Shown: piece after piece, positions 2,175 to 49,917 of the stretch | Layout of the letters: each line of letters starts with the position of its first letter | Numbering within the stretch: position 1 is the stretch's first letter | NCBI RefSeq assembly: GCF_000147875.1 | Contig: NC_014507.1 | Coordinates: 1,860,001-1,924,000, forward strand | Source: Methanolacinia petrolearia DSM 11571 | GTDB taxonomy: Archaea; Halobacteriota; Methanomicrobia; Methanomicrobiales; Methanomicrobiaceae | Direction: 5' to 3' | Length of the DNA: 64,000 nt | Program-made: the position numbers and the translations under genes | Notes under the pieces: generated by a model | Told to the model about the DNA's origin: nothing | Databases searched by the model: none | The model's input: the letters and a program-made list of their open reading frames with translations, nothing else

Positions 2175-3399
2175 GATTCACATCCTCTATAACTGCTTTG
2201 CATTCTCCATCCTTCAGGACTATTTCAACCCGGTCATCCCTGAAAAGATCTGCCGCGGATCTCACAACAGAATCATTCTTGCGGACTATACAATATCCTC
2301 TCTCAAGCGGTTTTTTCGGGTCAGATGCAGCCAGCGAAGCCCGCAGAAGCCCGAGGGACATCCTTTGCCTTTCAATATAACCGTTCATCGAATGATTCAG
2401 GCGGCCGAAGAGATCGTCAAGTCTCTGGAACTCTTCATTAATCAGCTGTTCAAACTTTTTCGGTTGCAGTCTCAGCCTGAAACCCTCGAGCAATTCCCTC
2501 TCCCTCGTGATCCTGTCGGTCACTGAGTTCATGAGCGTCTTTTCATATGATCTCAGCTGGTTCTCCAGTTCGCATCTGTCCGGGACCACGATCTCTGCAG
2601 CCGCCGACGGTGTCGGAGCCCTGACATCCGCTGCAAGATCGACAAGCGTGAAATCGATCTCATGGCCGACCGCACTTACAACAGGGGTCTTGCATTCAAA
2701 TACCGCTCTTACGACGTCCGGGTGATTAAACGGGAACAGATCCTCAAAACTGCCTCCGCCCCTTCCGACGATTATAACATCCACAAGACCGTCGATGCGG
2801 CGTATGGCCCTTGCGATATCAGCATGTGCGTTGTCCCCCTGGACAAGCGCCGGCGACAGGATAATCTCAACGGGGTACCTGCGGGAGATCACATTTTCTA
2901 TATCGCGCCTTGCAGCACCCGAAGGAGAAGACACAACTCCTACCTTTCTGGGAAATTGGGGAAGCATCTTCTTGAATACTTCATCGAAAAGACCTTCTTC
3001 CGCAAGCTCTCTCTTCCATCTCTCCACGAGAAAATGCTTGTCGCCTGCACCCGCGGCACTCAGTTCCCTTACAATAAACTGGTACTTCCCGTGAGGCTCA
3101 TAGACCTCGACCGAACCGTATGCACGAACTTTCATGCCGTTTTCAGGCCTGAATCCCACTTCCCGGGCGGAGCTGCGCCACATTGCACAGTTTATAAGAT
3201 ACTCTCTCCCGTAAACCGATTCTGTCATGGAGAAATACAGATGGCCCGAGGCATGATTCTTAAGGTTTGTCATCTCCCCCTCGATCCATATCCCACGGAG
3301 CGAGTCATCATCAAGCCTGCTTTTTATAATTGCAGAGATCTCGGAGACGGACTTTATCTTATTCTCCCCGGAATCCTCCTCTATGCCGAACCAGTCCAT
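2158..3399 (-). CDS. xseA: Exonuclease VII large subunit
   Basis: This 413-residue catalytic subunit has an N-terminal OB-fold for single-stranded DNA (about residues 15-110). The conserved nuclease core follows: VGVVSSPSGAARRDI (near 153), IIVGRGGGSFEDLFPFN (near 208) and AVGHEIDFTLVDLAADVRAPTPSAAAE (near 243). A helical arm comes next, where XseB binds. The length is slightly below the bacterial norm of 440-460. Together with xseB it forms a two-gene operon on the minus strand. The intact motifs indicate an active enzyme, and the bacterial-type pair suggests ancient lateral transfer. Confidence 0.93.
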   Translation of the reverse strand: MDWFGIEEDSGENKIKSVSEISAIIKSRLDDDSLRGIWIEGEMTNLKNHASGHLYFSMTESVYGREYLINCAMWRSSAREVGFRPENGMKVRAYGSVEVYEPHGKYQFIVRELSAAGAGDKHFLVERWKRELAEEGLFDEVFKKMLPQFPRKVGVVSSPSGAARRDIENVISRRYPVEIILSPALVQGDNAHADIARAIRRIDGLVDVIIVGRGGGSFEDLFPFNHPDVVRAVFECKTPVVSAVGHEIDFTLVDLAADVRAPTPSAAAEIVVPDRCELENQLRSYEKTLMNSVTDRITRERELLEGFRLRLQPKKFEQLINEEFQRLDDLFGRLNHSMNGYIERQRMSLGLLRASLAASDPKKPLERGYCIVRKNDSVVRSAADLFRDDRVEIVLKDGECKAVIEDVNHGKNI

Positions 3400-41056: not shown

Positions 41057-42220
41057 TTATCTAACAGCCTCTTCTATGCACTCTTCAAGGCTTCCCAGTC
41101 TTGCCTCGGCGCCGCACATATTCGGGACATAGGCAAATGCCTTGCCGGAATCGACCATTATCGTATCGAATTTATCCATCGCAGGAGAGACCACGATGCA
41201 GGTATCCTCGATAACCTTCGCCCCTGTCTTTTGAATCTTCGAGACTATACCGGCGTTTGCATCCTTCACGCCTTTCGACGAGAAGATGTAGAGAGGTTTT
41301 TTCACCTTCCTGCCTGCAAGCAATTCGGAAATTTTTAAAAGCTCTTCAGCCGAGCAGTGAGGGCACCCGACAGCCACCGCATCGATCTCCTTTTCCTTAA
41401 ACAACGATTCTATCTCGGATGCCTCTATCACGATCTTTTCCGAGGGTTCCGGAGCAAATGTCGGCAGTCTCGCCTCGGGCGTTATCCCCTTTACATGATA
41501 CAGGGCGACTGCTCCGGTTGCCGCCATCGCCGCTCCCAGGGCCTTGAGCTGATCTCTCGATGCGCGTATGTTCGTAAAGTACGGGATCCTGTTTCCAACC
41601 TCTTTTCCTGCAAGATATCCTATCGCACCGAAATGCCCGGCGTGAAGAGCGTCCGAATCCTCGACCTCAACTGTAACCTGAGGCATACGATTTTTGAACA
41701 GGTGCAGCCCGTACTTGGGAGTTTTACCGATAATTGCCGCTGCAAGTGCGGACGGCCCGCCCTCGCGGTTCGTCTTCGCGCCGATAACCGAGTTGACATA
41801 CGAGACTGCAGACGATTCGGACCATGCAAGATGGTCCTGCATCGTCAGGTTCGTATAAAGGTAATAAGGAGTACAGGTGCACTCCATCTTCACGCCAAGC
41901 TTCCTGTACGCATCCATTACTGCCAGCTGTTTATCTGCGAACTCCTTTGAGATCCCTATATCGCGCCAGTTGTCACGGGGCATACCCACCGGATTTAAGA
42001 CCGAAAGGACAGCGACACGCGCATCAAGATTTCTCAGCCATTCAAGGCCCCACTCGCCTATAGTCTTATACGACGCCCCGCTGATCTGGGCACTCGTTAT
42101 CGGTACCAGCTCCTCCGCCCCGAAGACCTTCCCCAGAGCAACGAGGATCTCCATCATCTTCTGTCTTGTCTCGCCGTACTCACCGGCCAGTATATTCTCG
42201 TCTTCCCTGTCAAGCTGCAT
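41057..42220 (-). CDS. Aconitase X large subunit (phosphomevalonate dehydratase)
   Basis: This 387-residue protein matches the aconitase X catalytic (large) subunit: LVPITSAQISGASYKTIGEWGLEWL, CTCTPYYLYTN near 124, AWSESSAVSYVNSVIGAKTNREGGPSAL and VAVGCPHCSAEELLKI, with cysteines for the Fe-S cluster. In archaea, aconitase X dehydrates mevalonate 5-phosphate to trans-anhydromevalonate 5-phosphate, the first step of the modified mevalonate route described in Aeropyrum. The neighbouring UbiD and UbiX genes support this. The small subunit (DUF126) is not next to it. Confidence 0.9.
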   Translation of the reverse strand: MQLDREDENILAGEYGETRQKMMEILVALGKVFGAEELVPITSAQISGASYKTIGEWGLEWLRNLDARVAVLSVLNPVGMPRDNWRDIGISKEFADKQLAVMDAYRKLGVKMECTCTPYYLYTNLTMQDHLAWSESSAVSYVNSVIGAKTNREGGPSALAAAIIGKTPKYGLHLFKNRMPQVTVEVEDSDALHAGHFGAIGYLAGKEVGNRIPYFTNIRASRDQLKALGAAMAATGAVALYHVKGITPEARLPTFAPEPSEKIVIEASEIESLFKEKEIDAVAVGCPHCSAEELLKISELLAGRKVKKPLYIFSSKGVKDANAGIVSKIQKTGAKVIEDTCIVVSPAMDKFDTIMVDSGKAFAYVPNMCGAEARLGSLEECIEEAVR

Positions 42221-42226
42221 GTTTTA

Positions 42227-43471
42227 TCAATCCCACCCGGCTCTAACGAAATTCTTCTCTTCTCCCATAACCATCGTTGCATCGACCCCGATTTTTACAT
42301 TTGTACCGTCACCGATCCTGCACGGATCAAGCGATGAACCCCTGGCTCCTTCGATAACCATAAGGTCCCGGTCACCCCTGACACGGGTCGCGATTGCGTA
42401 CTCGACATCCTCCATATCGTATATGTCGATATCTTCATCCACGATTACGACATGCTTCAGCGAGGTATGTGCGGCAAAAGCAGCCATGATCGCATTCTTC
42501 GCATCTCCCTGCGTATTCTTCCGTACCTGGACTACTCCGTGAAGGTACCCGCAGCCGCCGGTCGTAAGAGACACGTTGCGAACCGTCGTAACCTCTCCCA
42601 CGGCACGATAGATCTTCGGCTCATAGGGCATTCCCATCAGGAGTTTGTGCTCGTTGCCTCCCGGGAGAATCCCATGAAATATCGGATCATTCCTCAGGTG
42701 CATTCCTGTAAGCTCGATAACAGGGGCGGGCCTTACGGGATCATAGGTTCCCGTGATATCGACAAAGGGGCCCTCGTCGGTTTTATCTCCGGTGATATAA
42801 CCCTCGAGGACTATCTCGGCATCGGGAACATGAACGCCGTTTTCACACTCGAAGACATTCATCTCACCGCCGGAGAGTTCGGCGGCATATTGCAATTCTT
42901 TTCCGGTCGGAACACGTGTGCACGATGCAAACGTAACTCGCGGATGCGTCCCTATGGTTATCGCTACGGGCAGGCGATCGCCGTTTTCGAGCGCGGCCCT
43001 TAAGAGATTGTATGTATGGCGGCCCTCGACAAGTCGTGCGACCAGTCTCTTTTCATCGAGCACAAGCATCCTGTGAATCGATGCATTCGTGACTCCGCCG
43101 TACTCGGAAAAGACGATGGCTGAAGTAAGATATCTCCCGGCATCGAGAGGATAATGGCGCATAACCGGAAGACTGAAGAGATCGGGCGGATGCATATTGA
43201 GCTGCCCGGCATTATTCACGACACCGTCGTAGCCTGCCGATGAAAGGCTCCTTACGACATCCTTCTCATCATACCCGAGGGCAAGCGATATGGCCTTCCT
43301 CGATGCTGTAACGTTCATCACACCGCGATGAACTTTGTCAAGCTTGTGGAAGAAGAGAAGTTTATCGGTCTCCGCCGCCATCTTGGGCGCTTCGTATACC
43401 GACGAGACCTCTTCCTCTACATCGGTTACAAGATCCTTTTCCCTCATCAATTCTATAAAATCACGCATCAT
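42227..43471 (-). CDS. UbiD-family decarboxylase (probable anhydromevalonate phosphate decarboxylase)
   Basis: This protein of about 414 residues has UbiD features: RDFIELMREKDLVTDVEEEVSS, GVTNASIHRMLVLDEKRLVARLVEGRHTYNLL, IGTHPRVTFASCTRVPTGKELQYA, EIVLEGYITGDKTDEGPFVDITGTYDPVRPAPVIELTG and VVIVDEDIDIYD. UbiD enzymes use prenylated FMN made by UbiX, encoded just upstream. Next to aconitase X it is best read as the decarboxylase giving isopentenyl phosphate. GGAGTGG precedes an ATGATG pair, so the start could be 43468; the frame back to 43498 overlaps ubiX. Confidence 0.9.
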   Translation of the reverse strand: MMRDFIELMREKDLVTDVEEEVSSVYEAPKMAAETDKLLFFHKLDKVHRGVMNVTASRKAISLALGYDEKDVVRSLSSAGYDGVVNNAGQLNMHPPDLFSLPVMRHYPLDAGRYLTSAIVFSEYGGVTNASIHRMLVLDEKRLVARLVEGRHTYNLLRAALENGDRLPVAITIGTHPRVTFASCTRVPTGKELQYAAELSGGEMNVFECENGVHVPDAEIVLEGYITGDKTDEGPFVDITGTYDPVRPAPVIELTGMHLRNDPIFHGILPGGNEHKLLMGMPYEPKIYRAVGEVTTVRNVSLTTGGCGYLHGVVQVRKNTQGDAKNAIMAAFAAHTSLKHVVIVDEDIDIYDMEDVEYAIATRVRGDRDLMVIEGARGSSLDPCRIGDGTNVKIGVDATMVMGEEKNFVRAGWD

Positions 43472-44012
43472 ATCCACTCCATCGAAATCCCAGATCATGT
43501 TCGACTCCCAGGTGATCGAGAGCTCTTGCGACGACCATATCTACAAGATCTTCGATCTTTGTCGGTTTCATATAAAATCCCGGGGCCATCATCATTATCG
43601 TCGCACCCGCTTCATCGGCACCCAACATATTTTTGAGATGAATTCTTGAAAGAGGCATCTCCCTCGGCATAAGAATGCATTTCCTTCTCTCTTTGAGGCA
43701 TACGTCCGCTGCACGTGTGATCAGATTTTCAGAGTAGCCGGAACTGACAGCCGCAAGAGTCTTCATGCTGCACGGGCAGATAATCATCCCTTCATAACGG
43801 AAAGAACCGCTTGCGACATCAGCGAACATGTCCTCCTCTCCGACATAGACTCCGTTAAAACCCGAGAGATCGACACCTTCATATTCCGCTATCTTCTTTG
43901 CAATATCAGATATGATGATATGGACCTCTCCCTTCTCAGTAAGAACTTCAAGAAGCCTCTTTGCGTACGCCATACCGCTGGCGCCGGTTACTGCCACTAC
44001 ATATCTTTTCAT
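43461..44012 (-). CDS. ubiX: Flavin prenyltransferase UbiX
   Basis: This protein of about 183 residues is a flavin prenyltransferase: KRYVVAVTGASGMAYAKRLLEVL, GMIICPCSMKTLAAVSSGYSENLITRAADVCLKERRKCILMPREMPLSRIHLKNML and GATIMMMAPGFY. It attaches dimethylallyl phosphate to FMN to form the cofactor of UbiD, encoded downstream with an 11-nt overlap. The ATG at 44012 has GGAGAG 8 nt upstream; a GTG at 44021 is too close to that site. Confidence 0.94.
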   Translation of the reverse strand: MKRYVVAVTGASGMAYAKRLLEVLTEKGEVHIIISDIAKKIAEYEGVDLSGFNGVYVGEEDMFADVASGSFRYEGMIICPCSMKTLAAVSSGYSENLITRAADVCLKERRKCILMPREMPLSRIHLKNMLGADEAGATIMMMAPGFYMKPTKIEDLVDMVVARALDHLGVEHDLGFRWSGYDA

Positions 44013-44046
44013 GGGGTGCACTCTCCAAATCTGATTGAACGGATCA

Positions 44047-45252
44047 TTATATATTTAGCTTGTTCTGCTTAGTAGGTTTACTAATATTCAGGATTTCGGT
44101 CGCCGCACTCTCCACAGCTTTGCGATACTCAGGGAGAGTGTATACTCCCATCCTCCACTGGATTCTTCTCGTGTCGTTGAGAGTATTCAGCAAAGGCGAC
44201 ATCTCCTCGAGTGAGACCAGGTCGTTCCTGTTCTCGACCATAACGTCTATCGACATGGGAGACGGAAAGGACGGAATATCCACCAGAACGAAATCTTCAT
44301 TCACTCCCGCGATCTCCGCAATCTCTGTGGCAATCCTTCTCTCGTCTATCAAATCTGAGCTTCGCAGGACTGACGACATCCGGATCTGGTCCAAACCGAC
44401 ATAGATCGAACGCTTGTAAAGGGACCTCCTCATCAGGCTCTTCATCAGAGTTGAAGCGCTTTCGGATTCGGAATTCATGAGCTCGACAGAGAACGACCCG
44501 TCATCCATGGACAGGAGTTCATTCGCCCGGTCGCTCCCGGTGGCTTCCAGGTGCCTGACTGCCGCCGCTTTGACCATCGATTCCGCAATCCTTGATACAT
44601 GGTGAAAGTATATGGTAGGCCTCATCAAAGTCCTGGCAATAAGAAGCGACTCGGCGGCGATAATTCCGGTATCCTTCAACGCAAGACCGTTTTCAGAGAG
44701 AATCGTACTCTGTATAAGCCTCTGTGCATCAACCGTACCGTAAGGAACGCCTGTATAATGCGCATCCCTCATCAGGTAGTCCATCCTGTCTACATCCAGA
44801 TCGCCATGAATTATCCCGGCCAGCTTATGCTTTCCTTCGATCATCCGGCAGATCTCGGACGGATCAAGCCCGATCTTCTCGACGGCCCCGGATATTTCAG
44901 TCTCATGGAGCATATGCTCCACTTCATGATGGCTTCTTCCGATATACTCCTCGATCAGCGGTTCGGTTGCATGCGAGAAAGGCCCGTGGCCGATATCATG
45001 CAAAATCCCTGAAACCATCGAGAGAAGGACATCATTATCATCGAGCTTCAGCCTTTTTGCAAGAATTCCGGCGAGGTGCATCGTCCCGAGGGAATGCTCG
45101 AAACGTGTGTGGTTTGCGCCGGGATACACCATATCCGAAAAGCCGAGCTGCCTGATGTGCCTGAGCCTCTGAACCTGCGGAGAATCAAGTAAAGGGAGAA
45201 TTTTTTCATTTACGCTGATATAACCGTGAACAGGATCCTTTATCGTCTTCAT
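44047..45252 (-). CDS. HD-domain phosphohydrolase (SAMHD1/YdhJ-like)
   Basis: This 401-residue protein starts KTIKDPVHGYISVNEKILPLLDSPQVQRLRHIRQLGFSDMVYPGANHTRFEHSLG, where the His of TRFEHS begins the HD metal site. ILHDIGHGPFSHATE gives the HD pair and HGDLDVDRMDYLMRDAHYTG the last Asp. This is the SAMHD1-like branch, often a dNTP triphosphohydrolase, possibly with allosteric nucleotide sites. The archaeal substrate is not known. Minus strand, divergent from cofD. Confidence 0.85.
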   Translation of the reverse strand: MKTIKDPVHGYISVNEKILPLLDSPQVQRLRHIRQLGFSDMVYPGANHTRFEHSLGTMHLAGILAKRLKLDDNDVLLSMVSGILHDIGHGPFSHATEPLIEEYIGRSHHEVEHMLHETEISGAVEKIGLDPSEICRMIEGKHKLAGIIHGDLDVDRMDYLMRDAHYTGVPYGTVDAQRLIQSTILSENGLALKDTGIIAAESLLIARTLMRPTIYFHHVSRIAESMVKAAAVRHLEATGSDRANELLSMDDGSFSVELMNSESESASTLMKSLMRRSLYKRSIYVGLDQIRMSSVLRSSDLIDERRIATEIAEIAGVNEDFVLVDIPSFPSPMSIDVMVENRNDLVSLEEMSPLLNTLNDTRRIQWRMGVYTLPEYRKAVESAATEILNISKPTKQNKLNI

Positions 45253-45387: not shown

Positions 45388-46287
45388 ATGAAAGTTGCAT
45401 TCCTCTCCGGGGGGACAGGGACTCCAAAACTTATCAGGGGGTTTAGAAATCACCTGAGCGACAATGATATCTCCGTTATTGTTAACACCGCGGAGGATAT
45501 GTGGATATACGGAAGCCATCTCTCGCCCGATATCGATACGGTGATGTACCTCTTCGCGGGAATCCTGAATACTGATTCCTGGTGGGGCATAAAAGGCGAC
45601 ACCACGATAACAAATGACACACTGAAAGATCTCGGAGAAGATGTCTATCTTACGCTCGGCGACAGGGACAGGGCATTAAATATTGCAAGGGCACGGATGC
45701 TTAATTCAGGGATTACCCTTACCGGAGCGACCAGGGAACTTTGCAAAAGACTCGGAATCAGCGCCAATATTCTCCCGATGACCGACTCTGAATATACGAC
45801 ATATATAAAAACCGGAGATCTGCTGATACATTTCCAGGAGTACTGGGTAAAACACCGTGGAAACCTGGACATCGAAGAGGTCGTAAGAGTCGGGGACGAT
45901 CAGGTCTTCGGGACAAAAGAGACCATAGATGCCATCAATAATGCCGACCTCGTAGTAATCGGGCCGTCGAATCCCGTTACGAGCATCTCCCCGATCCTCG
46001 AATGTTCGGGTGTAAAAGATGCGCTGAAGGAGAGCTTTGTAGTCGCCGTCAGCCCTTTCATAGGCAATGAACCTGTGAGCGGACCTGCAAAGGCGCTTAT
46101 GGAGGCCTGGGGAATGACTGCCGATTCGGCAGGGACATACAAATTGTACAATGAATTCACAGATCTTTTTATCCAGGACATCAGGGATACAATAACACTC
46201 AAAGACGGAATAAAACTCGACACCCTGATGAAAACCGAAGATGTGAGTTCGAAACTCGCCGGAGAGATCATATCCAGGGTCTGCTGA
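45388..46287 (+). CDS. cofD: 2-phospho-L-lactate transferase CofD
   Basis: This 299-residue enzyme has the family motifs VAFLSGGTGTPKLIRGF at the start, VNTAEDMWIYGSHLSPDIDTVMYLFAG (residues 35-60), WWGIKGDT, LTLGDRDRA, VVIGPSNPVTSISPIL and GNEPVSGPAKALMEAWG. CofD joins the lactyl-phosphate (or phosphoenolpyruvate) moiety, activated as a guanosine diphospho derivative, to Fo in coenzyme F420 synthesis. All positions look intact, in contrast to the paralogue 1.9 kb downstream. TATA-like TATATACCAATTC lies at about 45358-45370. Confidence 0.94.
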   Translation: MKVAFLSGGTGTPKLIRGFRNHLSDNDISVIVNTAEDMWIYGSHLSPDIDTVMYLFAGILNTDSWWGIKGDTTITNDTLKDLGEDVYLTLGDRDRALNIARARMLNSGITLTGATRELCKRLGISANILPMTDSEYTTYIKTGDLLIHFQEYWVKHRGNLDIEEVVRVGDDQVFGTKETIDAINNADLVVIGPSNPVTSISPILECSGVKDALKESFVVAVSPFIGNEPVSGPAKALMEAWGMTADSAGTYKLYNEFTDLFIQDIRDTITLKDGIKLDTLMKTEDVSSKLAGEIISRVC

Positions 46288-46335
46288 AATAACCCTCTAT
46301 AACTTATTTATCTGCAAAACTCAAACTATTCGCAT

Positions 46336-47259
46336 ATGGCGGATTATTATGCATTCTCAGGTATTGATGATGCAATAGAAAAAACGAAAAGCCTGTTGTG
46401 GCCGTTCAACTGGAGCATATGGTGGAGAATTGCCGTGATCTCCCTTTTCACAGGTTATTTCGGCGGGATCAACTTCCCTTTCTCCTCAAATACGTATTCA
46501 CAACCCTTCGACTCCACACAGGCCTTTACAGGAATGCCGGGGCTGCCCGGCATCATAATATTGCTAATCGCGGCAGTACTCCTGATAGCGGTCGTATTTG
46601 CATTTCTTTCAAGCATCTTTCAGTTTGTATTCGTAAAGTGCCTTTCCGAAAACGAATTCAGGCTGAAGAAATATTTTGGTGAAAATATCGGTCGCGGACT
46701 GAGGCTTTTTGCTTTCTGGATAGTATTAATTCTCGCAACTATCGTATCAGTTCTTGCATTATTCTTATTTGCAATAGCCGCAGGGGGAGCTCTTTCCGTA
46801 CTGATGATAATCCCGGCAATCGGTATTTTTCTCCTTATACTGTTACTGGTAGCAATAATCGCCCTCTTTACCAACGACTTCGTTGTTCCCATCATGATCA
46901 AAGACGATTGCGGGGTTATCGAAGGCTGGAAAAAATGCTGGGGTGTTTTAAGAGCCAGTTTCTCGCAGTCGCTGGTATACCTTGTCATGAGAGTTGTCAT
47001 ATCGATTATCGTTGCAATTATCCTGGTCATTATTTCAGTTGTAGTACTTCTTCTAATCGGCATACCGTTCCTTGCCTTCTTTATCTTTTCAGGAGCGGTG
47101 TTCGGCCTGAGTCCCCTTAATATTACATTGCTTATACTGTTCCTAGTTATTGCAATCCCGGTACTGCTTATCATCTGTGTTCCCTTCAACACTTTTCTCA
47201 GGGTCTACTCACTGAAAGTGCTCGGGAAGATGGATGAGAGATATAATCTGGTCGAATAA
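46336..47259 (+). CDS. Multi-pass membrane protein (DUF7544-like)
   Basis: This 307-residue protein has seven or so hydrophobic segments (about 30-50, 78-100, 130-155, 158-185, 220-245, 247-265, 267-292) and a soluble start (YYAFSGIDDAIEKTKSLLWPFNWSIWWRIAVISLF). The pattern resembles an archaeal family of glycerophosphoryl diester phosphodiesterase membrane-domain-like proteins found in methanogens and haloarchaea. KDDCGVIEGWKKCWGVLR lies between helices. Function unknown. It is placed between cofD and its paralogue, probably in one transcript. Confidence 0.65.
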   Translation: MADYYAFSGIDDAIEKTKSLLWPFNWSIWWRIAVISLFTGYFGGINFPFSSNTYSQPFDSTQAFTGMPGLPGIIILLIAAVLLIAVVFAFLSSIFQFVFVKCLSENEFRLKKYFGENIGRGLRLFAFWIVLILATIVSVLALFLFAIAAGGALSVLMIIPAIGIFLLILLLVAIIALFTNDFVVPIMIKDDCGVIEGWKKCWGVLRASFSQSLVYLVMRVVISIIVAIILVIISVVVLLLIGIPFLAFFIFSGAVFGLSPLNITLLILFLVIAIPVLLIICVPFNTFLRVYSLKVLGKMDERYNLVE

Positions 47260-47300
47260 ATTTGAAAACCTATTTTATTTTTATCACCAACATATAACCG

Positions 47301-48194
47301 ATGATTACCGTCCTTTCAGGCGGAAGCGAGTCACTAAAACTGATCCGTGCAATGAGGCATTTTCTTGACGACGATGAAATCGCGGTCATCGCCAATACAT
47401 CCGATGCCCTGTGGATGGAAGGGACACTTGCCTCGCCTGATATCGACGACCTGATCTTCCTATTCTCCGGGATTCTCAATACTACAAAATGGCACGGAAT
47501 AAAAGGCGATACATATTCGACATGCCTCTTCTTCAGGAAATATTTTGAAGATGAAATTGCCGGTGTCGGAGACAAGGAACGGGCGATACATATTGCCCGG
47601 GGAAGATATATCTCGGAGGGAATCTCAAGTACCCAGGTAACAAAAGAAATCTGCGGGAGATTCGGGATATGTTCCGCAATACTTCCCGCAACTGACAACT
47701 TCATGGGGCTCCGGTGCAAAGTAGGGGATGAAACGATATCTCCCCTGAATCTGAGACAGAGATTCAGCGGTAACGAACTGGATATTATAGAGAGCATAGA
47801 CCTGGAATACTATAACGAACCGGTTCTGGCGGAAGAAGCGTCTTCGGCAATAAAGGAATCCGATGCAGTAGTCATCGGCCCCGGATCTCCCCTGACATCC
47901 GTTCTTCCGATAATCGCCTGCAGGGGAATCAGGAACCTCATGCTTGAAAATTTTACTATAGCCTTTGCTCCGCCTTTTCCGAAAAATGATTCCGGTTTGG
48001 CTTTATCCAATTATAATAAAATTGTCAGGATCTACAAAGATCTCTCGGAACTGCTTATACAGGACAGTCTGGAAGAAGATCGGATTGAAGGGGCCATGCT
48101 GCTCAATACGAAGATGACTTCCAGGCATTCCGCCGAATCACTTGCATGGGATCTCATGTCAGTTATCAGAAGCCATGGAAAGAAGACTGCTTAG
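47301..48194 (+). CDS. Divergent CofD paralogue
   Basis: This 297-residue protein aligns with CofD along its length (VIANTSDALWMEGTLASPDID, FLFSGILNTTKWHGIKGDT, VVIGPGSPLTSVLPII, ELLIQDSLEED) but departs at key places. The N-terminal GGTGTPK is GGSESLK, the Asp pair in NTAEDMW is reduced to NTSDALW, and NEPVSGPA is replaced by PPFPKNDSGLAL. The active site has probably been altered, so it may use another substrate or be regulatory. Close packing with cofD and the membrane gene suggests an F420-linked role (inference). Its 3' end overlaps a convergent gene. Confidence 0.8.
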   Translation: MITVLSGGSESLKLIRAMRHFLDDDEIAVIANTSDALWMEGTLASPDIDDLIFLFSGILNTTKWHGIKGDTYSTCLFFRKYFEDEIAGVGDKERAIHIARGRYISEGISSTQVTKEICGRFGICSAILPATDNFMGLRCKVGDETISPLNLRQRFSGNELDIIESIDLEYYNEPVLAEEASSAIKESDAVVIGPGSPLTSVLPIIACRGIRNLMLENFTIAFAPPFPKNDSGLALSNYNKIVRIYKDLSELLIQDSLEEDRIEGAMLLNTKMTSRHSAESLAWDLMSVIRSHGKKTA

Positions 48195-49418
48195 ATAATC
48201 GAATGCATCCATCAGTGCATCGCCAATCATTGACAGGATCTTTATCGCACTATCCAGGTCCACTTCCGAATGAATTATATCATCGACTCCGCCGAGATCG
48301 CTGTCTCCCCCGAGATCCGATATCAGGTCATCAATTCCGGATGAAGAATCCGATGTACCTGTTGAGGTAGAGGTTGCCGTCGATGTAGACGTTTTTGTAG
48401 ATTTTGTCGAAGTTGCCGTTGCCGCCAGGGTGGGGGACTTCAGATCAAGATCCTCGTTCAGGCTTACGGCATAATCGTACCCCTGTTCCGCCTTTGATTC
48501 GGACTGCTCTGCATAGTCCCTTGCAGAATCATAGTCATCAAGGCTGAATTTATCTTTTGCAAGAACAAGGAGCGTCTCCGCATTATCTATATACGACTGG
48601 ATTACCCACACCCTTGAATCACCGGAGAGACCTTCATCCTCGTATTCCGAGATCATGCCGTTAACAATATCTATCGTAGATTCAGCCTGTTCGATCGAGA
48701 ATTCAGCCCATGCAACATCGATAAGGGAGTAACTCTCATCAATATACGTTTTTGCCGAGGAAAGGAGGATACTTGCAGCAGCCGAATCCGACTCTTCAGC
48801 CTCTTCAATGGCCCCAGATGCAGCATTATATTTCTTCTCTGCCGAACCGGTATCAACACCAAGCCCGGACTTTTCATCGATGTAGCTCTTTAACGATGCA
48901 AGTTCACTCCTGCGGGTTTCAAGAATTCCATCGATATCGGAAGGATTCACAATAGTCGCTTCAACAGCCTCTTCATCGACTGTATCGCCGGCATAATCGT
49001 ACCAGGTCGCCCTGATAATCGTATAGTTTCCGGTCGACGATACCTCAGGAGCGGTTCCGTTCAGGGATATTTTAACCACAGAGGAGTACGAATCGTCATA
49101 ATAGAGTTCAAAGCCGCTTAAACTGACATATCTGCCGGTGTATGAGGGAAGATTGTGCGATACGCCGTCAATTAATATCGATAATGTCCATTTCGGACTG
49201 AGCAGATCCGTATATAGCTGCAGACTCTCGTCATCAGATTCGAAATCATAACTTACCGAATAAACTGCAGTGGCACTCTCACCCGGGGTGAGGACATTTC
49301 CGGGAGATGTACTGCCCCAGACTTCAAGTTCGTCGTCAGCCAGACAGGGAGCAGCAAGACAACAGAGGCTCAAAAATATTAAAAGGGATATTGCAACTTT
49401 ATTTGAGAAATCCGGCAT
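48159..49418 (-). CDS. Secreted helical repeat protein with Ser/Thr-rich linker
   Basis: This protein of about 419 residues has a signal peptide (VAISLLIFLSLCCLAAPCLA, from residue 8) when started at the ATG at 49418. A beta-sandwich-like N-terminal region (residues 30-155; SPGNVLTPGESATAVYSVSYDF) is followed by helical repeats rich in Ala, Glu and Ser (160-330; paired helices ending in DYDSARDYAEQSESKAEQGYDYA). A Ser/Thr linker (335-360) and an acidic C-terminal helix follow. It is probably a cell-envelope protein. A longer frame to 49481 overlaps the universal stress gene. No family assigned. Confidence 0.7.
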   Translation of the reverse strand: MPDFSNKVAISLLIFLSLCCLAAPCLADDELEVWGSTSPGNVLTPGESATAVYSVSYDFESDDESLQLYTDLLSPKWTLSILIDGVSHNLPSYTGRYVSLSGFELYYDDSYSSVVKISLNGTAPEVSSTGNYTIIRATWYDYAGDTVDEEAVEATIVNPSDIDGILETRRSELASLKSYIDEKSGLGVDTGSAEKKYNAASGAIEEAEESDSAAASILLSSAKTYIDESYSLIDVAWAEFSIEQAESTIDIVNGMISEYEDEGLSGDSRVWVIQSYIDNAETLLVLAKDKFSLDDYDSARDYAEQSESKAEQGYDYAVSLNEDLDLKSPTLAATATSTKSTKTSTSTATSTSTGTSDSSSGIDDLISDLGGDSDLGGVDDIIHSEVDLDSAIKILSMIGDALMDAFDYLSSLLSMASDN

Positions 49419-49467
49419 ATTTATGATAATACTCTGAGCAGATTGGATAAATCCTTTTCCATAACAA

Positions 49468-49917
49468 TCAGTTTCTGACAATTATCGTCGTTATATCAGA
49501 ATGTTCAACCACCGAAGAACTGACACTTCCGAGGAAGAACCTGTCAAGACTGCTCTTCCCGGAGGAACCTACAATAATCAGATCCGCCTTAATCTTCTCT
49601 GAAAAATCGACGATCAAATCCCTGGGATCCCCGATCATGAAATGAGTAATAATACTAACTCCTTCATCGGATGCCACCTCTTCAGCATGTGAAAGAACCT
49701 TTTTCGCTTCTTCTTCCATTATTTCATGGTAAGTATTGACATTTCCTTCCGGGGCGGATACACCTCTGTCATAGATCATATTGTGCGTCACGATATGGTG
49801 GACGACATAGAGTGCGTGCAGTTCGGCATTCCGGATTCTTGCCTCATCCACTGCTACATGCAGCGCGTTTTCAGAAAATGGCGATCCGTCAAGTGCAACC
49901 AAGATTTTTTTGAACAT
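49468..49917 (-). CDS. Universal stress protein (UspA family)
   Basis: This protein of about 149 residues has the Usp fold: FKKILVALDGSPFSENALHVAVDEA at the N-terminus and the ATP-binding motif LIIVGSSGKSSLDRFFLGSVSSSVVEHSDITTIIV at the C-terminus (G-x2-G-x9-G-S/T type). The ATG at 49917 starts the typical MFKKILVALDG; the frame can be extended by four residues. Such proteins bind ATP and respond to stress; the specific role is not known. The gene precedes the secreted protein by about 50 bp on the same strand. Confidence 0.9.
   Translation of the reverse strand: MFKKILVALDGSPFSENALHVAVDEARIRNAELHALYVVHHIVTHNMIYDRGVSAPEGNVNTYHEIMEEEAKKVLSHAEEVASDEGVSIITHFMIGDPRDLIVDFSEKIKADLIIVGSSGKSSLDRFFLGSVSSSVVEHSDITTIIVRN

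Follow-up and report, generated by a model that had tools for sequence, protein, structure and literature searches.

A conserved CofD-fold paralogue beside cofD in Methanolacinia petrolearia and its relatives, altered in its ligand motifs and possibly a partner of the CofC/CofD step

CofD builds coenzyme F420, which is used in methane making. In the single-contig genome of Methanolacinia petrolearia DSM 11571 (2,843,290 bases), a second gene of the CofD family lies shortly downstream of cofD. The locus was analyzed within a stretch of 64,000 nucleotides (positions 1860001-1924000; hereafter the window, to which the coordinates below refer), where the following genes were found:

45388..46287, + strand: cofD, encoding a canonical 2-phospho-L-lactate transferase of 299 aa with every CofD motif present
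46336..47259, + strand: DUF7544 membrane protein of 307 aa, between cofD and the paralogue
47301..48194, + strand: CofD paralogue of 297 aa, with a predicted CofD fold and without the ligand motifs

The three genes lie on the same strand, separated by gaps of 48 nt (cofD to DUF7544) and 41 nt (DUF7544 to the paralogue). No other CofD-family genes were found in the M. petrolearia genome, and the CofC gene is located elsewhere, away from the cofD locus. Families of the order are labeled f1 to f6 in the following, where f1 is the window's own family, Methanomicrobiaceae, f4 the Methanoculleus family, and f6 Methanocorpusculum and Methanocalculus (rows identical to the named ones); f3 is presumably Methanofollis. 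Upstream of cofD lies a divergent HD-domain gene, with UbiX-like, UbiD-like, and aconitase X genes farther out; this block (41057-45252, - strand) recurs beside cofD in several families of the order, and we take its aconitase X, UbiD-like, and UbiX-like genes to resemble a variant of the archaeal mevalonate pathway. On the other side, a convergent ORF (48159-49481, - strand, 440 aa, no Pfam match) overlaps the 3' end of the paralogue by 36 bases; it has a Thr/Ser-rich stretch near its end and recurs beside the paralogue in f1 loci only. A scan with sigma-70 and terminator models, which are unsuited to archaea, gave no excess over shuffled sequences. In three of the genomes compared (G006, G017, and G025), cofD shares 4 nt with DUF7544, and DUF7544 another 4 nt with the paralogue, which suggests coupled expression; the window has no such overlaps. 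DUF7544 was considered as a functional partner and thought unlikely to be one, since f3, f4, and f6 genomes have members of the family at a distance from cofD, and it thus probably acts outside the F420 pathway.

The window CofD and the paralogue align over their full length (37% identity, E 1e-59), and both exceed the 30-bit gathering cut-off of the Pfam CofD model (PF01933), with 154 bits for CofD and 85.1 bits for the paralogue. An earlier note on this DNA had described a tandem CofD copy whose active-site motifs are changed and which only a membrane protein, here identified as DUF7544, separates from cofD; in these respects it is confirmed. Against the NCBIfam model for F420 CofD (TIGR01819, cut-off 257.45 bits), the window CofD scored 328.5 bits and the paralogue 153.2 bits, below the level of the equivalog; against the GlmR/YvcK model (TIGR01826, cut-off 196) the paralogue reached 34.8 bits. 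An AlphaFold model of the paralogue (pLDDT 92.7, pTM 0.91) had M. mazei CofD (3c3d, TM 0.87) as its best match in the PDB, and the predicted structure is thus of the CofD fold. The GGTGTPK, HFQ(E/D)xW, and SGPA motifs, near-invariant in CofD, are absent from the window paralogue. As Pfam and simple similarity both name the protein CofD, it is an annotation hazard.

The following features of the paralogue were assigned by comparison with CofD and FbiA:

47319..47339, + strand: GGSESLK (residues 7-13), where CofD has the nucleotide loop GGTGTPK
47403..47405, + strand: codon of D35, matching metal ligand D45 of FbiA; acid kept
47439..47441, + strand: codon of D47, the counterpart of FbiA metal ligand D57 and of D46 in M. 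mazei CofD; acid kept
47739..47759, + strand: SPLNLRQ (residues 147-153), where CofD has HFQEYWV; part of the subdomain of the deazaflavin pocket
47970..48008, + strand: residues 224-236, a shorter counterpart of PFIGNEPVSGPA...LM, which is taken to be the loop that encloses GDP
48135..48152, + strand: ESLAWD, in the C-terminal helix (residues 279-284)

The loss of both GGTGTPK and NEPVSGPA stated in the earlier note is thus correct, the NEPVSGPA loop being gone, with a deletion at that site. Not mentioned in the note are a larger loss, that of HFQEYW (CofD residues 148-153), the loss of D94, and the conserved ESLAWD at the C-terminus. The same note had reported the loss of one acid of an Asp pair; the change is real (E36-D37 in the window CofD, D35-A36 in the paralogue), but does not concern a metal ligand. 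In FbiA, the catalytic metal is described as held by D45 and D57 (PMC7253369), and D46 of M. mazei CofD, the counterpart of FbiA D57, as important for activity (PMC8498797). In our alignment these metal-ligand columns hold E36 and D48 in the window CofD and D35 and D47 in the paralogue, so that the acid lost, in the column of FbiA D46, is the neighbor of a ligand and not a ligand. With both metal-ligand acids, N32, and S200 retained, residual activity of the window copy is possible.

To what extent these changes are common to the family was assessed with a reference set of 63 positions invariant (at least 98%) in 59 CofDs, 39 of them in ligand segments and 24 elsewhere. Ligand-segment positions were kept at a mean of 0.40 in 27 paralogues and the other positions at 0.78, a gap equaled in 0 of 20,000 shuffles; the ligand segments, comprising those of the FbiA paper together with the N-terminal Gly loop, the GPSNPVTS loop, and the SGPA loop, were declared after the alignment had been seen, and the test is therefore not blind. 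The G027 paralogue fragments, the truncated G021 CofD, and the G024 paralogue (start mis-chosen) were dropped before the counts; the trees and the invariant-position alignment were made without the G024 paralogue and all G027 rows, and with outgroup L144, which has an odd C-terminus. In CofD numbering, Q150 and D94 were kept in none of the 27 paralogues, W153 in two (0.07), H148 at 0.15, and G158 at 0.07; neither the T10-K14 block nor the full SGPA block was found in any (0.04-0.11 per residue for SGPA). Both metal acids are present in the window copy and were found in 13 of the 27, and the D47-equivalent position lacked an acid in eight. Positions that were kept comprise W65, G67, D71, T75, G91, R95, R101, T112, P130, G192, and P193, and the hairpin matching FbiA 69-102 is among the best-kept parts (W65, G67, D71, T75, and G91 at 0.96-1.0; W66 at 0.22). 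In the basal f4 copies (G258 and G288), GGTGTPR and parts of the acid motif are present and HFQEYW, SGPA, and D94 are lost, a pattern indicating that the latter three probably disappeared before the nucleotide loop and the metal acids did. The paralogue very likely lacks CofD activity.

Two CofD-family matches were found in each of 28 of 60 relatives (22 f1 and six f4). Both genes lie within a few kb on one contig in 26 of the 28, as they do in the window; the exceptions are G014, with ~0.6 Mb between them, and G005, in which they are on different short contigs. As the G014 paralogue is kept at that distance from cofD, close linkage is not required. A rearrangement in G014 (L054 and L055) parted cofD-DUF7544 from the paralogue, and each half retains its old outer neighbors. 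Across 232 genomes of the order, with family counts made by hand from the listing and the f5 total obtained by subtraction, two or more matches were present in 22/27 f1 and 35/40 f4 genomes, and elsewhere in 0/11 f2, 0/12 f3, 0/33 f6, and 5/109 f5 genomes. The second matches in the five f5 genomes were rejected as paralogues, being canonical copies or gene fragments, and no paralogue was found in f2, f3, f5, or f6 genomes of the order. Four of the five f1 genomes without two matches have no CofD at all, and in the fifth (G021) the contig ends inside cofD; two of the five such f4 genomes have no CofD-family match. In G010, G018, G026, and G002 (f1, 74-84% complete), CofC is present and a CofD-family match absent, probably owing to a gap over the shared locus. 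Outside the order, a phylum sample of 162 genomes had one match in 154, none in seven, and a split gene in two pieces in one. A contig scan with the window paralogue alone as query returned no relative, and with alignment A1 as query 51 named loci. By these loci, Methanomicrobium, Methanogenium, and Methanoculleus belong to families with the paralogue. Those of the 51 that come from Methanocorpusculum and Methanocalculus have one canonical CofD each, carrying ESLAWD, and were rejected as paralogues. CofC gave one strong match each in 59 of the 60 relatives and in the M. petrolearia genome (two pieces in G027), any second match being weak.

The earlier note held that normal motifs in orthologues would mark this copy as merely decaying. 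Normal motifs are indeed present in the tree-nearest relatives, which are the single CofDs of Methanocorpusculum, Methanocalculus, and Methanofollis, but decay is contradicted by low dN/dS (0.10-0.25 for the paralogue in 12 close pairs, compared with 0.06-0.32 for CofD in the same pairs) and by retention of the paralogue in nearly all Methanomicrobiaceae and Methanoculleus-family genomes in which the locus is assembled, usually beside cofD. Full-length paralogue ORFs occur in 26 aligned genomes of these two families, with W64, D70, T74, R94, T111, P129, A282, and W283 invariant. The paralogue is thus kept by selection across two methanogen families and is not decaying. Slow decay of a gene without present function, for which one might cite the paralogue branches, longer than those of CofD, and two f4 genomes, has only the slimmest chance of being right and is already largely refuted by the selection data. 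In one of these genomes, G289 (L183 ~2500-3320, - strand), the paralogue is frame-broken next to an intact cofD, through real decay or assembly error, and in the other, G290, it is missing; both are incomplete assemblies of small genomes, and the paralogue is accordingly dispensable or replaceable in some lineages.

The phylogeny that the earlier note had proposed as a check was run, and all paralogues formed one clade (100/99) joining the single CofDs of f3 and f6 (98/96). With the C-terminal columns removed, the paralogues grouped with f6 at 100/99 and with f3 and f6 at 82/54; with slow paralogue rows added, the corresponding values were 100/95 and 95/80. A Trp in the C-terminal helix was present in 27/27 paralogues and 18/18 f3/f6 CofDs, and absent from 41 other CofDs (0/28 in f1/f4, 0/6 in f2/f5, and 0/7 in the outgroup). 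Trees and Trp together suggest an old tandem duplication with different fates by lineage, although a younger one is not firmly excluded by the AU tests: a single clade of the paralogues with the f1/f4 CofDs was not rejected with the full alignment (p 0.151) or with the slow rows (p 0.33), the sole rejection (p 0.0115) being obtained with the C-terminus cut. We consider it unlikely that the paralogue is a recent tandem duplicate of the neighboring cofD and not an old lineage to which the one CofD of Methanocorpusculum and that of Methanofollis also belong; the tandem position and the two non-rejections fit such an origin, while the grouping with f3/f6 CofDs in all three trees, the rejection with the C-terminus cut, and the lack of the Trp in f1/f4 CofDs speak against it. 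An independent duplication in f4 was likewise disfavored (AU p 0.025; 0.058 with slow rows). Gene order agrees with a tandem duplication at what would be the ancestral locus: the next gene upstream of cofD is the HD gene in most f1 rows, five of six f5 rows, and G290 (f4), while in G057 (f6) one ORF lies between them. This order-wide comparison relied on a crude ORF caller, which failed on some GC-rich loci (no cofD called in L046, L166, and L167), and several f2-f4 labels were doubtful, so that clear rows only were used. The genes are arranged as cofD-DUF7544-paralogue in f1 and as paralogue-cofD in f4. Subfunctionalisation, with CofD losing what the paralogue keeps, was rejected, as the columns common to the paralogue and f3/f6 and not shared by f1/f4 CofD are E279 and W283 only, which is too few.

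What the selected protein does can be judged from what has and has not been kept. An active transferase using a different donor or acceptor, such as would make a variant F420 or use another guanylylated substrate, would be in keeping with the intact predicted fold, with D35, D47, N32, and S200 of the window copy at metal and ligand positions, with the GGTGTPR of G258 and G288, and with the differing donor preference described for CofD relatives (PMC8764529). Such an enzyme should have a new invariant pocket, yet the ligand segments vary freely in the 27 orthologues, in which no new invariant (polar) set replacing the lost ligand residues was found; among the ligand positions invariant in CofD, only W153 has switched strongly across the lineage (to R, 21/27), both metal acids persist in fewer than half of the copies, and CofC has not been duplicated in step. 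We therefore regard a new transferase as quite improbable, and the variant F420 product and the other nucleotide-activated substrate offered in the earlier note are not upheld. Its third suggestion, binding of Fo without turnover, comes nearer to the evidence. A sensor, store, or carrier of deazaflavin (Fo or F420-0) would explain the preservation of the hairpin, as FbiA 69-102 is described as helping to form the deazaflavin pocket (PMC7253369); in the other half of the pocket (FbiA 145-189) the invariant motif is gone, with H148, Q150, W153, and G158 kept at the low values given above, and this function is accordingly a doubtful candidate, if a better one than a new transferase.

Loss of the substrate-binding parts in a gene that is selectively kept makes a partner or regulator of F420 synthesis likelier than a second enzyme, and with the fold under selection while the ligand parts are lost, protein contact is the simplest role. 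Its most likely place is at the CofC/CofD step, as a regulator or partner, with CofD and CofC as the putative contacts. CofD and FbiA are described as dimeric, with one open and one closed protomer in FbiA (PMC7253369); CofC and FbiD are each reported as inactive without FbiA, with the speculation that the GTP site forms only on CofD/FbiA contact (PMC6450877), and CofC/FbiD are elsewhere thought to be completed by CofD/FbiA (PMC8498797). No fusion pointing to a protein partner was seen. We propose the following course of events. A tandem duplication of cofD at the ancestral locus in early Methanomicrobiales would have left one copy as the working CofD, while in the other the motif of the deazaflavin pocket and the GDP loop may have disappeared early, followed in many lineages by the nucleotide loop and the metal acids. 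This second copy would have retained the fold, the helical hairpin (W-x-G-I-x-G-D-T-x-x-T), the G-D-R helix, and the lineage-specific C-terminal helix (ESLAWD); it would no longer transfer 2-phospho-L-lactate and would act through protein contact, either paired with CofD in a heteromer, of which it would be the non-catalytic half, or as a CofD mimic binding CofC, which could promote or block the CofC-CofD contact. In either form it might tune the amount of the unstable intermediate LPPG made and handed to Fo. This pseudoenzyme proposal is tentative, with a chance of being correct that we put somewhat short of even. A bolder form of it, which we hold to be rather unlikely, is that a heteromer runs the CofD step throughout Methanomicrobiaceae and the Methanoculleus family, the old duplicate being a dedicated non-catalytic subunit on one side of the CofD dimer or on CofC that gates the supply of labile LPPG, while in Methanocorpusculum, Methanocalculus, and Methanofollis the same lineage would still provide the only functional CofD. 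A conserved CofD look-alike with the fold and without the substrate sites is in any case a ready candidate for F420/LPPG control, and allows one lineage to be compared between families in which it is an enzyme and sister families in which it seems to be a pseudoenzyme. We found no earlier report of the paralogue in the open-access literature, to which the search was confined.

Among known systems, CofD (TIGR01819, PF01933; PDB 3c3d, 3c3e, and 3cgw) is closest to the paralogue in predicted fold, full-length homology, locus, and context, but the paralogue falls under the family cut-off and is without the nucleotide loop, HFQEYW, and the SGPA loop, and CofD activity is not predicted for it. FbiA, the bacterial PEP transferase (PDB 6uvx series), has the fold in common with the window paralogue, in which the D45/D57 equivalents are acidic; however, FbiA has HFQEWW and a metal site, and the paralogue family as a whole keeps neither. 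GlmR/YvcK, a UDP-GlcNAc-binding regulator related to CofD, differs in being distant in score and in binding another ligand, whereas the paralogue sits inside the CofD branch. In Listeria, GlmR is described as an accessory uridyltransferase as well (PMC10128056). GlmR is reported to stimulate GlmS directly (PMC7525490), showing that a protein of the CofD fold can regulate another pathway enzyme, and by analogy provides a precedent for a CofD-fold regulator such as the paralogue may be.
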